DNA of 34,163 nucleotides from the NCBI GenBank assembly GCA_001714685.2, contig MDTP02000067.1, positions 1 to 34,163 of the forward strand. The letters run 5' to 3'. This DNA comes from Methanosarcina sp. Ant1. Lineage in GTDB: Archaea > Halobacteriota > Methanosarcinia > Methanosarcinales > Methanosarcinaceae. The first letter of the stretch is position 1. The number at the start of each line of letters is the position of its first letter. The position numbers and the translations under genes were made by a program. The notes under the pieces are model-generated. The model was given only the letters and a program-made list of their open reading frames with translations. It ran no database searches and was not told the origin of the DNA. Below, piece after piece: positions 27,508 through 31,835 of the stretch.

Positions 27508-29103
27508 TTAATTCTTTGATTTTGATGCATAAATTGTGTTTCCATATCTTCCGATGTTGATCCTGTTTCCGTTGGGTTTCGGTTCTTTAGAATAATCAGA
27601 GGAACGATAGCCAGTGTCAATACAGGGAGAACTCACTTTATCTTTAACCCATGTTTTTCCATTCCAGCGACCTGTGACCGATTGCAGGTGATAATCATGA
27701 TTTTTCTGGTTTGCAAAGAGAGGGTTCACATAGATATCAGTTGTTGATGCGCAGTTTTTATATTTACCTGCCAAGTTGTTGTAAAGGCAATTGTTTTCCA
27801 GCACAAGGGTATGTGTTGCAGGAAGGTAATTGGCAGCTCCATACCCTATCCCGCTAGAATCTTTTTTGTGCTTCTGAGTGTTTACGATTATATTGTTGCG
27901 GACAATGGTTTTGCATTTTTTACCTTTCGGTGAATAACCTGATGGAAAACCACCCATTGGATACATGATGGCAACAGCAGCGTGGTATGCGCCGTCAAAT
28001 ACATTATTTTCGATGAGAGTGTCATGGAATCCACTCGCTACAATCCCCCCTGCCCAGTCAATGCCCATATTTGTGCCTGTACCGTAGAAGGTATTGTGAT
28101 AAATATGGACATTTTTTCCCTGATCTTGGGTAGCAGAAGAAGTATCATAATTAAAAATCCAGATTCCAGGCCCATAAGTATTGTCGAACGTATTATCGTA
28201 AATATCAATATTATCCATAATGCCCGCACTCTTTTCGATCTGAATGCCCGGACCGCCTGTACACCCACTGTAGAAAGCGTCGATTACGTTATCGTGCAGT
28301 TTTACTTTATTAGAGTTCCATATTCTAAGAGCGCTGTTGGTCCTGCAGGTTATGCGGTTGTTCCAGGCTTCTACGTTCTCACACTCACCTGTAAACAAGC
28401 CGTCGTGCCCGAGCTTAGATATTTTATTATTGTAAAACTGAATATTTTTACCGTATCTTATTCTAAGCCCATCTCCTTGCCCATCGTGCATATACATATT
28501 GTATACTTTTACGTTGTTACAGTGAGTGAAGTACATTATATTATAGTACCCTTTACCGAAAGAAATTTCGGTGTTACCAGCATAGTTTACATTGACCTCG
28601 AAGCCCCTTATTACAATATTATTATTTCCCAAACTGCTCATCTGCTGGATAAGGGGTTTCATCGTAGGCCACCCTGCGTGATTAGTAAGTTTGATCACGG
28701 CAGTGGAGTCTCCTTCAAGAATTGTGTTACTGCCAATTAGGAGAGTATCGTCAATAACGTATGTAAACGGACCTTTTAGATGGACAGTTGTGTACCCGGA
28801 TTTAGAGTTTTCTGCCACGAACTTTAGAGCCTGGTTAATCTGGACATGGTCGTCTTTTCCATCGCATTTAAAGTCTCCACCACTGCCTCCTGAAACATAA
28901 ATTATTGGCGCTGGACTCCGGCATAAAGCAGTAGGAACACTTGCAAGGACAAGGCAACTAACCAGAAAAAGAATCACTAATTCTCGTCTTGGCACCGATA
29001 TAATAGGAGAGAGATCTGAATAAAATTTATGAGTACTTTCATTAGGTAAAGATTTATGTGATGACGTATCTATACCCCCATAAAACTTATTACTGTATAC
29101 CAA
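27508..29103 (-). CDS. Secreted right-handed parallel beta-helix (pectin-lyase-like) protein
   Basis: The product contains a hydrophobic signal segment (LVILFLVSCLVLASVP, ALC) and then a pectin-lyase-type fold: an N-terminal strand-rich cap with ILEGDSTAVIKL, and about ten coils of the form N.V.I..N.F....GPGIWIFN (residues about 150-440). It ends in the block SSPCIDTGYRSSDYS and GNRINIGRYGNT, frequent in Methanosarcina surface beta-helix proteins and disaggregatase-related proteins. A role in binding or cleaving the cell-surface polysaccharide (methanochondroitin) is possible, not shown. The frame opens with TTG at 29103, but GTG at 28995 (VPRRELVILF...) would give a classical signal peptide start and is likely correct. 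Confidence 0.8.
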   Translation of the reverse strand: MVYSNKFYGGIDTSSHKSLPNESTHKFYSDLSPIISVPRRELVILFLVSCLVLASVPTALCRSPAPIIYVSGGSGGDFKCDGKDDHVQINQALKFVAENSKSGYTTVHLKGPFTYVIDDTLLIGSNTILEGDSTAVIKLTNHAGWPTMKPLIQQMSSLGNNNIVIRGFEVNVNYAGNTEISFGKGYYNIMYFTHCNNVKVYNMYMHDGQGDGLRIRYGKNIQFYNNKISKLGHDGLFTGECENVEAWNNRITCRTNSALRIWNSNKVKLHDNVIDAFYSGCTGGPGIQIEKSAGIMDNIDIYDNTFDNTYGPGIWIFNYDTSSATQDQGKNVHIYHNTFYGTGTNMGIDWAGGIVASGFHDTLIENNVFDGAYHAAVAIMYPMGGFPSGYSPKGKKCKTIVRNNIIVNTQKHKKDSSGIGYGAANYLPATHTLVLENNCLYNNLAGKYKNCASTTDIYVNPLFANQKNHDYHLQSVTGRWNGKTWVKDKVSSPCIDTGYRSSDYSKEPKPNGNRINIGRYGNTIYASKSKN

Positions 29104-29762
29104 AATTATTTAATAAATAAATTAGTCTGTTTCCGACATTTCGGACAAGATTTTGGAAATAGAACCCACTCTCTTAATTCCAAGACTATAGAAAAAGTTT
29201 TAATGAAGTGCTCGTGTTACATGATATTGAATCAAAAAGATTATTTAAATACGAGATTAAGAATAAATGTTCATTTTTTCAGGCTAATTCCCCCAATTCA
29301 CATGAATTACCCCATGAAAACAAAGGAATTAATTAAGTTTCATACTCTAATTAAATTTCTATAGTCAGTATGTAATTTAGATCATTATATTATAAAAGTA
29401 TATACGTAACAACTGTTAAACTTGTTATTGCATCTTTAAAAAAATTATTTATACTTACTAGATATGAGGAAAGCAACTAAATAAATGAGAAAAGACGGAG
29501 TTGCAAAATTACAGTTTTTTTCCGCGCTTTCCGCGCTTTCAGCGGTTCAACTTTACATTAAGATGAGTGGCGAAATTTTGGTACTTGATGATAAATTTAT
29601 CTGCCAGTTTGTTAAGTGCTGATTTTTACTGTAAGCAATATAAGTGTGGAACTTAGAAAGACTTGGGATACAGCGATAAACTCAAGGAGACAGTCATTAG
29701 GATTTTATTGGAAAGGGCATCTACATAATTATTAAAAAGAAGTTATTCCAAGTCGTTTTTAA
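29104..29762. other. Long non-coding stretch
   Basis: About 660 bases without a credible gene. It includes an AT-rich promoter region for the beta-helix gene and a short repeated GC-rich motif (CCGCGCTTT twice at about 29522-29539). It leads into the hairpin cluster. Confidence 0.4.
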
Positions 29763-29911
29763 GTCCTCTTGAGCGAAGCGAAAAGGACAGCGCACTGCAG
29801 AGCCGCAACTCTGCCGAAAAGGACCTCGTGCTGTTGCACTTGCAGTGCAACTAAAAGAAAAATCATAGATTTTTCTGGTCCCGAAGCGAAACTCGGGGAG
29901 CGAAACTCGGG
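29763..29911. ncRNA. Cluster of five consecutive hairpins, candidate structured RNA or REP-like repeat
   Basis: Five stem-loops follow each other: GTCCTCTT/AAAAGGAC (29763-29788, one mismatch), GCAGAG/CTCTGC (29797-29814), GTTGCACT/AGTGCAAC (29833-29851), AGAAAAATC/GATTTTTCT (29856-29876) and CCCGA/TCGGG (29880-29897). The last is followed by a second GCGAAACTCGGG (29900-29911). The loops contain GCGAA tetramers. The segment is more GC-rich than its surroundings. It could be a small RNA, an array of REP-like hairpins, or a strong transcription barrier downstream of the minus-strand gene at 29955; strand is undecided. Confidence 0.5.
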
Positions 29912-29954
29912 AGAAGAAACTAACCCTTAAGACTGTAAGTGAGAGAGCTTGCTT

Positions 29955-30212
29955 TTAGTCTGCATTTGATTTGTTGAGTTTGTTGAAGATGTATCTAATA
30001 CCGAATGCTATAGCTACTAGTGCAGCTATTGTAGCGGCTGAAGCGATTAAGGATTTGCTGAATGCTGTTTTTAGATCATCGCCGTTAAGTCCAAAATATA
30101 GTATGAACGGTAAACTAGTTATGGGCCATATTAGCATGGCTGTTTTAAGAATGTTCCATCCTACTGTAGAATTGTCCTTGTTTATACTCAATTTCCTACG
30201 TGCTCCTTTCAT
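29955..30212 (-). CDS. Small two-helix membrane protein, hypothetical
   Basis: An 85-residue product with a basic N-terminus (MKGARRKLSINK) and two hydrophobic helices (about 21-43 and 53-75) joined by a polar loop (NGDDLKTAFSKS), ending KLNKSNAD. AAAGGAG lies just inside the frame, so translation could instead begin at a TTG at codon 8. No recognised family. It sits at the left edge of the region with DUF488-like repeats, and a similar-sized two-helix protein is at 31937-32158; the two do not align clearly. Confidence 0.5.
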   Translation of the reverse strand: MKGARRKLSINKDNSTVGWNILKTAMLIWPITSLPFILYFGLNGDDLKTAFSKSLIASAATIAALVAIAFGIRYIFNKLNKSNAD

Positions 30213-30472: not shown

Positions 30473-30601
30473 ATACTGTAGGACTTACGCAGTTGAATGA
30501 AAAACCAATAGCATGAAACCTTCAACTGTCTAAAATACAAATTTGACCACACCGTCTATTGCACTTTATTTTATACTTCAAGTGCGTAAGTCCTATACTG
30601 T
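30473..30601. mobile_element. 115-bp AGGACTTACGCA miniature element with perfect 7-bp target duplication
   Basis: The element is 30480-30594. The left end AGGACTTACGCAGTTGAA and the minus-strand right end AGGACTTACGCACTTGAA differ at one of 18 positions. ATACTGT occurs directly outside both ends (30473-30479 and 30595-30601). There is no coding capacity. It is the best-preserved of four related sequences in the window (others at 5884, 8555 and 30671). Confidence 0.85.
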
Positions 30602-30670: not shown

Positions 30671-30783
30671 AGGACTCACGCGGTTGAACCGAGAAATCAA
30701 AGTATAAACCCTCAACTATCTAAAACATAAATATTAGCTCAAGGTCTATTATACGTGGTTTTGTACTTAAGTGCGTAAGTCCG
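30671..30783. mobile_element. 113-bp AGGACTTACGCA miniature element, older copy
   Basis: The left end AGGACTCACGCGGTTGAA and the minus-strand right end GGACTTACGCACTTAAG match the 30480 copy with several changes. The inner block CTCAACTATCTAAAA is also shared. The terminal base on the right is mutated and no target duplication remains. It lies 76 bases from the younger copy in the same orientation. Confidence 0.75.
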
Positions 30784-30889
30784 AATTTTATTCAATATCT
30801 ACAGGGTATGTGATAAGTTAAATAAAGGAAGTCAAAGAAGCAGAGCATTTTGGGATACACAAAGGAACTGCTTGAATTTGGAGGTAAGA

Positions 30890-31231
30890 ATGATAAAGGG
30901 AATTAATGTCGCTCATTTGAAAGAGAAGCTTGTAGGTGACGCTGAGGCCAGATATATTGTCGTCGCGCAGAAAGCTCCGAATTATGTAAAATTTGATCAG
31001 ACACAAGATTGTCAAACCCTAGCACCATCAGCTAAACTTACGCAGGATTTCAAGTTAGGCAATATTACAAGGGATGAGTATAAGAGAAAATATACAAAAG
31101 AGTTGGAATTACCAGTCGCACAAGAATTAATGCGATACCTTCAAAACGAAGCAAGAAATACAGACATCTTTATGGTATGTGATTTCGATGAAAGATTTAT
31201 TTTGCTCAACACAATCCATCATTTAAAATGA
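30890..31231 (+). CDS. DUF488/YeaO-like small protein, paralogue 1
   Basis: A 113-residue soluble protein. The block LAPSAKL..DFKLGNITRDEYKRKYTKEL (about 46-73) matches the pattern of DUF488/YeaO proteins (TPSTELRKAF...F...Y..EL), followed by a strand (TDIFMVCDFDERF) equivalent to the family's TLLYSAK. It shares the NVAHLKEKL, PNYVKF and QEL motifs with the two paralogues downstream. GGAGGT stands four bases before the ATG at 30890, which fixes the start over the in-frame TTG at 30872. The family's biochemical function is unknown. The gene follows directly after two miniature elements. Confidence 0.7.
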   Translation: MIKGINVAHLKEKLVGDAEARYIVVAQKAPNYVKFDQTQDCQTLAPSAKLTQDFKLGNITRDEYKRKYTKELELPVAQELMRYLQNEARNTDIFMVCDFDERFILLNTIHHLK

Positions 31232-31342: not shown

Positions 31343-31477
31343 GTTGAATTATTAAAAATACCGGAAATAAAGCCTCTTAAAGTTAAAGGAGTTAAATAAG
31401 TATCCAGATTTGAGATTCCAGAGGTTAATAAGATCAAATTAACAGAAGAGCAAATTAAGAGGCATAATGGAGGTTAA
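31343..31477 (+). pseudogene. C-terminal remnant of a decayed gene, overlapping the next RBS
   Basis: A frame from about 31343 reads VELLKIPEIKPLKVKGVK, an in-frame TAA (31397-31399), then VSRFEIPEVNKIKLTEEQIKRHNGG and a TAA at 31475-31477. The last codons contain the GGAGGT ribosome binding site of the next gene (ATG 31479), so the lost gene was probably coupled to it. A homologous tail is found at 33588-33924. Only the C-terminus survives; the family is unrecognised. Confidence 0.5.
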
Positions 31478-31478
31478 A

Positions 31479-31835
31479 ATGTTACTGGAAACTGACTTTG
31501 CACATTTGAAAGAAAATATCAGCAAAAATACAGAGGCCCGATTTTATGTTATAATGCAACATCCCCCAAAATATGTGCGTTTTAATCAGATTCAGGAATG
31601 TCGCATCTTATCTCCATCTGATGAATTACTACAAAAATATAAGTTCGGTAGTGTAACATGGGATGGGTTCAAAAAGAAATATCTCAACGACTTAAAAAAT
31701 CCTATTGCACGCGCACGAATTAAATTTATTGCACAGGAAAGCAAGGTACATGATGTATACCTTGTATCAGACTGTGATTCAGAAGACTATTGTTACCGCA
31801 TCCTTTTGCAAGACGCGATCGAGAATTTTAAGTGA
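31479..31835 (+). CDS. DUF488/YeaO-like small protein, paralogue 2
   Basis: A 118-residue protein with the same layout as paralogue 1: LLETDFAHLKENI, PPKYVRF, LSPSDELLQKYKFG, FKKKYLNDL, then VYLVSDCDS. It is the most diverged of the three, with QESKVHDV where the others have QNEA, and a slightly longer C-terminus (DSEDYCYRILLQDAI). SPSDEL is closest to the classical DUF488 motif. GGAGGT precedes the ATG at 31479; the ATG at 31467 overlaps the RBS and is unlikely to be used. Function unknown. Confidence 0.68.
   Translation: MLLETDFAHLKENISKNTEARFYVIMQHPPKYVRFNQIQECRILSPSDELLQKYKFGSVTWDGFKKKYLNDLKNPIARARIKFIAQESKVHDVYLVSDCDSEDYCYRILLQDAIENFK

Follow-up and report, generated by a model that had tools for sequence, protein, structure and literature searches.

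The hairpin locus

The window analysed here is the whole 34,163-nucleotide stretch of Methanosarcina sp. Ant1 DNA, in which five stem-loops occupy positions 29763-29911 (29763-29788, 29797-29814, 29833-29851, 29856-29876 and 29880-29897). They are flanked by a Disaggr_assoc/beta-helix gene (27508-29103, minus strand) and by a small ORF on the same strand, which has no Pfam match and one weak paralogue in the genome; on the strand of this ORF, the element would start 43 nt past its stop codon. A sequence-only reading had described five consecutive hairpins within 149 bp of a long non-coding gap. All five stems were recovered there, no ORF of at least 80 aa overlaps 29763-29911, and the likeness of two of the loops through GCGAA is real, as is the repeated unit, which is AGCGAAACTCGGG(G/A) at 29885-29898 and again at 29899-29912. 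That reading counted three perfect stems, but there are four (29797-29814, 29833-29851, 29856-29876 and 29880-29897). The parts of this copy and its immediate neighbors are as follows.

29503-29590, minus strand: U-element, a second, different repeat, (GAAAGCGCG)nGAAAAAAACTGTAATTTTGCAA / (GAAAGCGCG)n GAAAAAAACTGTAATTTTGCAA
29753-29762, plus strand: A/T-rich lead-in, here TCGTTTTTAA, a weak match to the consensus YYATAAATTA
29763-29788, plus strand: head hairpin GTCCT-C-TT...AA-AGGAC, imperfect, 5+2+2 bp
29789-29796, plus strand: linker 1, AGCGCACT
29797-29814, plus strand: hairpin 2 of the GCAGA/TCTGC subtype, 6 bp, perfect
29815-29824, plus strand: second occurrence of the head's 3' arm (CGAAAAGGAC), which joins the two modules
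29825-29832, plus strand: linker 2, CTCGTGCT
29833-29851, plus strand: cassette hairpin GTTGCACT-TGC-AGTGCAAC, 8 bp, perfect
29856-29876, plus strand: A/T-rich cassette hairpin AGAAAAATC-ATA-GATTTTTCT, 9 bp, perfect
29880-29897, plus strand: hairpin 2 of the CCCGA/TCGGG subtype, 5 bp, GC-rich, perfect
29898-29911, plus strand: tail unit GAGCGAAACTCGGG, which duplicates the 3' half of hairpin 2 in tandem
29955-30212, minus strand: small ORF, 85 aa, membrane-protein-like, with its stop codon facing the tail of the element

The copy in the window accordingly runs from the head through linker 1, hairpin 2 (GCAGA), the 3' arm of the head, linker 2, the cassette and hairpin 2 (CCCGA) to a single tail unit; other copies carry several. 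The repeated 3' arm is recognized from a direct repeat, D1, in which 29779-29797 recurs at 29815-29833. Each linker can pair with a hairpin loop downstream, GCG of linker 1 (29790-29792) with CGC at 29804-29806, within the loop of the hairpin that follows (putative pseudoknot 1), and UCGU of linker 2 (29826-29829) with GCGA in the loop of the last hairpin (29886-29889, putative pseudoknot 2).

The hairpin density, which had been judged far above chance, was compared with 2000 dinucleotide-preserving shuffles of 29763-29911, and this control rules out chance hairpins. Two stems of at least 8 bp did not occur together in any shuffle, the summed stem length of 28 bp (shuffle mean, 5.5 bp) was likewise reached by none, and four perfect stems appeared in only 4 of the 2000. 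Folding of 29755-29930 gives z-scores of -2.3 (plus strand) and -3.2 (minus strand).

In many of this genome's aligned copies, the U-element immediately precedes the head; in the window it is inverted, and it is a neighbor, outside the repeat unit. Further downstream, the window holds two MITE-like elements of ~113 bp with inverted ends (about AGGACTTACGC...GCGTAAGTCCT; 30482-30596 and 30671-30783), and a stretch similar to these adjoins a repeat copy at another locus (L011). Two adjacent ORFs of the DUF488 family follow on the plus strand (30872-31231 and 31467-31835).

A modular repeat family in Methanosarcina

When 29700-29950 was used as the query against the genome of the organism itself (342 contigs, 4.29 Mb), at least 60 matching pieces were obtained from the best 40 of 110 candidate places. 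The head hairpin, allowing up to three mismatches, occurs at least 55 times in this genome, about equally on both strands, compared with none for the reversed-pattern control. The other copies for which the sequence-only reading had proposed a search thus number in the tens, are dispersed and are nearly all intergenic; under a simple ORF rule, only 1 of 50 copies with a head falls inside an ORF longer than 600 nt.

Alignment of the copies reveals a consistent grammar. In the minimal unit, which is 52 nt long, an 8-nt linker joins the head hairpin to a second hairpin. The unit is preceded by the lead-in YYATAAATTA, the linker has the form NxCGNNCT, hairpin 2 is of the CCCGA/TCGGG or the GCAGA/TCTGC type, and tail units, from none to several, come after it, each repeating the 3' half of hairpin 2. 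In 247 distinct upstream 20-mers, the base frequencies of the lead-in are 0.81 for A at -5, 0.73 for T at -3, 0.66 for T at -2 and 0.92 for A at -1. Long copies additionally contain a cassette, inserted between the linker and hairpin 2, that comprises the 8-bp hairpin and the A/T-rich hairpin. The latter comes in two alternative versions across the long copies, and most copies other than that in the window have the version CAGAAAATC-TCC-GATTTTCTG. Beyond the minimal unit, the copy in the window has a second module, a cassette whose two hairpins are both perfect, and a tail repeat.

Among 25 sampled genomes of the genus, the one studied here included, blastn found the element in 24; all 15 genomes from other genera were negative. 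With a covariance model built on the 52-nt unit, we detected at least 50 copies in this genome, up to at least 48 elsewhere in the genus and at least 41-42 in two genomes of a sister genus, all copy numbers per genome being lower bounds. Between one and six matches each, mostly weaker, were obtained in five genomes of the same family and two of another family; the best match outside the two high-copy genera had an E-value of 8.6e-11. The suggestion that the array is specific to Methanosarcina holds apart from the sister genus and a handful of weak hits in related genera. When exact patterns were scanned across 84,980 species, the matches listed were all Methanosarcina or Euryarchaeota/Methanosarcinaceae records. 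Viral contigs contained no exact match to the head, and a virus-borne element was rejected on this ground. In the open literature, searched by sequence and for Methanosarcina intergenic repeats, we found no description of the family; this coverage stops short of subscription journals, in which the first Methanosarcina genome papers probably appeared.

Covariation of the stems and a putative pseudoknot

Compensatory changes across the copies, which the earlier reading had proposed to look for, are present and exceed both the shuffle and the slid-partner controls. In 37 distinct short units, 98.0% of the cells are paired, with 7 pairs changed on both sides and 49 doubly changed cells, counts that are inflated by relatedness and by the exchange of whole modules and hence do not give the number of independent events. 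None of 500 shuffles reached the pairing values of the short units, and pairing falls to 55% or less when the partners are slid. Compensatory pairs occur in the head stem at positions 2, 4, 5 and 8, and the arms of the head are of the types GTCCT/AGGAC, GCCCT/AGGGC, GTCTG/CAGAC and GTCCG/CGGAC.

The cassette hairpin alternates in the same manner between GTTGCACT..AGTGCAAC and GTTGCGAT..ATCGCAAC, the relatives having GTTGCGAT-TAC-ATCGCAAC, which amounts to two compensatory pairs. The cassette alignment exceeds the controls on cells paired and on doubly changed cells; its number of doubly changed pairs does not exceed that in the shuffles. As far as the aligned sequences can tell, such counts show either selection on pairing or templated copying of palindromes. 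Examined as a guide to the functional strand, G-U pairs occupy a similar number of positions on either strand, and an excess on one strand comes largely from a single pair.

Covariation also extends beyond the stems. In short copies, the second linker base, x, and a base in the loop of hairpin 2, x', form a standard pair in 99 of 102 cases, against 46.7 expected from column composition, the pair types being GC (57), UA (25) and CG (17). In long copies, 56 of 59 linker-loop pairs are standard (39.0 expected). Together with the adjoining CG/CG, this pair makes a helix of 3-4 bp that crosses hairpin 2 and in which 97.3% of the cells are paired. The loops, of 3, 1 and 3 nt, are compatible with a compact H-type pseudoknot, and the cassette is located in what would be its first loop. 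The covariation between the linker and the loop of hairpin 2 suggests an H-type pseudoknot, with the reservation that two mutually exclusive helices would yield identical counts.

Genomic position and turnover of sites

The two ends of the element differ in their proximity to genes. With simple ORF calls, a facing stop codon lies no more than 25 nt from the tail in 7 of 25 cases in this genome and in 13 of 39 held-out cases; the corresponding values for heads are 1 of 16 and 0 of 42, and the held-out difference is significant (Fisher, 2e-5). In many cases the facing stop is 0-16 nt from the tail, and some are flush with it. Seen from these genes, the 3' UTR starts with the reverse complement of the element. 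There is no overall bias of orientation relative to neighboring genes, so that this placement describes a subset, with many copies outside that sense. The asymmetry between head and tail is partly due to other repeat material that often precedes the head, and the proximity to stops could reflect insertions that are tolerated where they are least harmful.

Comparison of individual sites indicates both retention and loss or gain. Between pdxS and pdxT, the element is present in 21 of the 27 genomes in which both flanks were resolved, in the same orientation and abutting or near the pdxS stop; of the remaining genomes, two have remnants and four lack the element. Another site (L020) is filled in this genome and at L309 and is empty in seven relatives, with 26-51 nt between the genes; other relatives have there an opposite-orientation copy just past the upstream stop or a different hairpin array. 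A third copy (L036) is essentially private to this genome, and few of the sampled sites are common to different species. From these comparisons, sites turn over and a minority of them is old. At the empty sites, divergence of the flanking intergenic DNA prevents the exact junction, or a target-site duplication, from being placed.

Degenerate tandem heads (AAATTAGTCCNCTTGAG..., with a spacing of ~35-40 bp) were seen upstream of intact heads in three left flanks and at three pdx loci, as if elements add beside their own ends. A different family of hairpin arrays (CAAACTTTTTCAAAAAAAGTTTGATCA; CAACCGGCGCAACGGTTGCGATCA) occupies the same intergenic places at ten loci in other Methanosarcina genomes.

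Relationship to known repeats and RNAs

Two readings of the hairpins had been offered, a REP-like array and a structured small RNA. Tens of intergenic copies, modular mosaics and compensatory changes bear out the former, and from the sequences the family looks less like a single small-RNA gene than like an archaeal counterpart of the REP/BOX repeats of bacteria. As in structured RNAs, compensatory changes are above the controls, in counts that relatedness inflates. A dedicated small-RNA gene at this position found no support, the locus being one of many copies; the covariance models of Rfam 15 gave nothing at the gathering score and only chance-level matches below it, and Rfam families were rejected accordingly.

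Most work on REP-like and BOX-like repeats concerns bacteria, whose RAYT-REPs have a Y1 transposase nearby as their hallmark. In the family described here, which consists of high-copy, dispersed, intergenic palindromes as REPs in general do, the strict RAYT-REP tag GTAG/CGTC is absent from the foot of the palindrome, which is YYATAAATTA|GTCC. None of 35 Y1_Tnp loci has hairpin 2 within ~1.5 kb, which rules out a RAYT/IS200 linkage for the loci examined, and three genomes (G013, G020 and G024) carry the repeats with no detectable Y1_Tnp. The term REP-like is therefore used for the kind of repeat and not for membership of RAYT-REPs. Terminal inverted repeats of the MITE type are also absent, the aligned ends GTCCTC... 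and ...CTCGGG not being inverted repeats of each other.

Short non-autonomous IS200/IS605 derivatives such as PATEs contain hairpins and lack terminal inverted repeats, features that they share with the Methanosarcina family, which differs in having no matching hairpin near the 35 Y1 transposase genes. BOX of Streptococcus pneumoniae is modular as well; we know of no sequence relation between BOX, RUP or SPRITE and the present family. The BOX, RUP and SPRITE repeats are similarly restricted to a clade, intergenic and extensively structured, with slow insertion deduced from site comparison (PMC3049150), whereas in Methanosarcina it is the 3' half of hairpin 2, the hairpin of the putative pseudoknot, that is repeated. 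Like the REP/BIME repeats of enterobacteria and pseudomonads, the family comprises intergenic palindromes that number tens to hundreds per genome, forms mosaic arrays, shows compensatory changes and frequently lies just past stop codons (PMC2817692, PMC12306157). In contrast to REP/BIME, it has an archaeal host, no GTAG foot tag and no linked Y1 transposase, and its two-hairpin unit has a covarying linker-loop pairing and an optional hairpin cassette. The covarying linker-loop pairing and the placement at stop codons are the unusual features of the family.

Origin and possible function

We propose, with a probability of roughly 0.6, that 29763-29911 is a long copy of a modular repeat family of the REP/BIME/BOX kind at the level of Methanosarcina, which spreads non-autonomously and, where transcribed, forms a folded RNA that acts on the mRNA. 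The copies would spread as non-autonomous elements by some route. A copy in a transcribed 3' region would place a stable fold at the 3' end of the mRNA, and the folded RNA might alter the life or the end of that mRNA through protection from 3' exonucleases, weak termination or slowed release of the ribosome at the stop, in which case the selected parts would be the pseudoknot and the head hairpin. The placement resembles that of REPs, which often lie 1-20 nt after ORFs; those of E. coli that are within 15 nt of a stop affect translation and are reported to stall ribosomes (PMC12306157). The median length of the 3' UTRs of Methanosarcina mazei is 85 nt, and there is some folding potential before their 3' ends (PMC7237163).

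Alternatively, the elements could be purely selfish non-autonomous mobile DNA whose hairpins are recognized as single-stranded DNA by an enzyme acting in trans, with no role in the host. Presence and absence between species together with the empty site, the paucity of shared sites among those sampled, the two orientations, the modular mosaics and the tandem tails all agree with this possibility, which we regard as appreciable although unlikely, given that the obvious enzyme is not linked at any of the 35 Y1 transposase loci, that the repeats persist in the three genomes with no detectable Y1_Tnp and that the pdxS site is retained in most species.

It is conceivable, though we find it distinctly doubtful, that the unit of this dispersed archaeal family is an RNA pseudoknot under selection, which is brought into the first nucleotides past stop codons and serves there as a portable 3'-UTR control cassette, with its strength tuned by the addition of modules and tail units.

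It is improbable that the repeats are transcription terminators or mRNA 3'-end signals scattered after genes. The facing stops close to the tails would fit such a role, as would the A/U-rich UAAUUUAU that follows the head hairpin when read on the gene strand, but the head flank on that strand, UAAUUUAUGG, is not a U-tract, so that the combination of stem and U-tract is not found at the head, and many copies do not lie after a gene in the required sense. Archaeal intrinsic termination has been reported to depend on poly-U and not on hairpins (PMC7289017) and, as the head is not followed by a U-tract, the hairpin itself is unlikely to terminate transcription. Slightly less probable still is that this locus encodes a structured small RNA acting in trans. 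The strong folding on both strands and the RNA-like covariation of the family would speak for it; the existence of tens of similar copies that vary in their tails and modules, and the lack of an Rfam match, speak against it.

If confirmed, the preferred reading of a mobile repeat family that acts on mRNA through its fold would mean that genetically tractable methanogens harbor a modular archaeal repeat family that combines a covarying putative pseudoknot, presence and absence between species, and placement at stop codons. The question of whether such repeats are parasites or regulators would then become directly testable.
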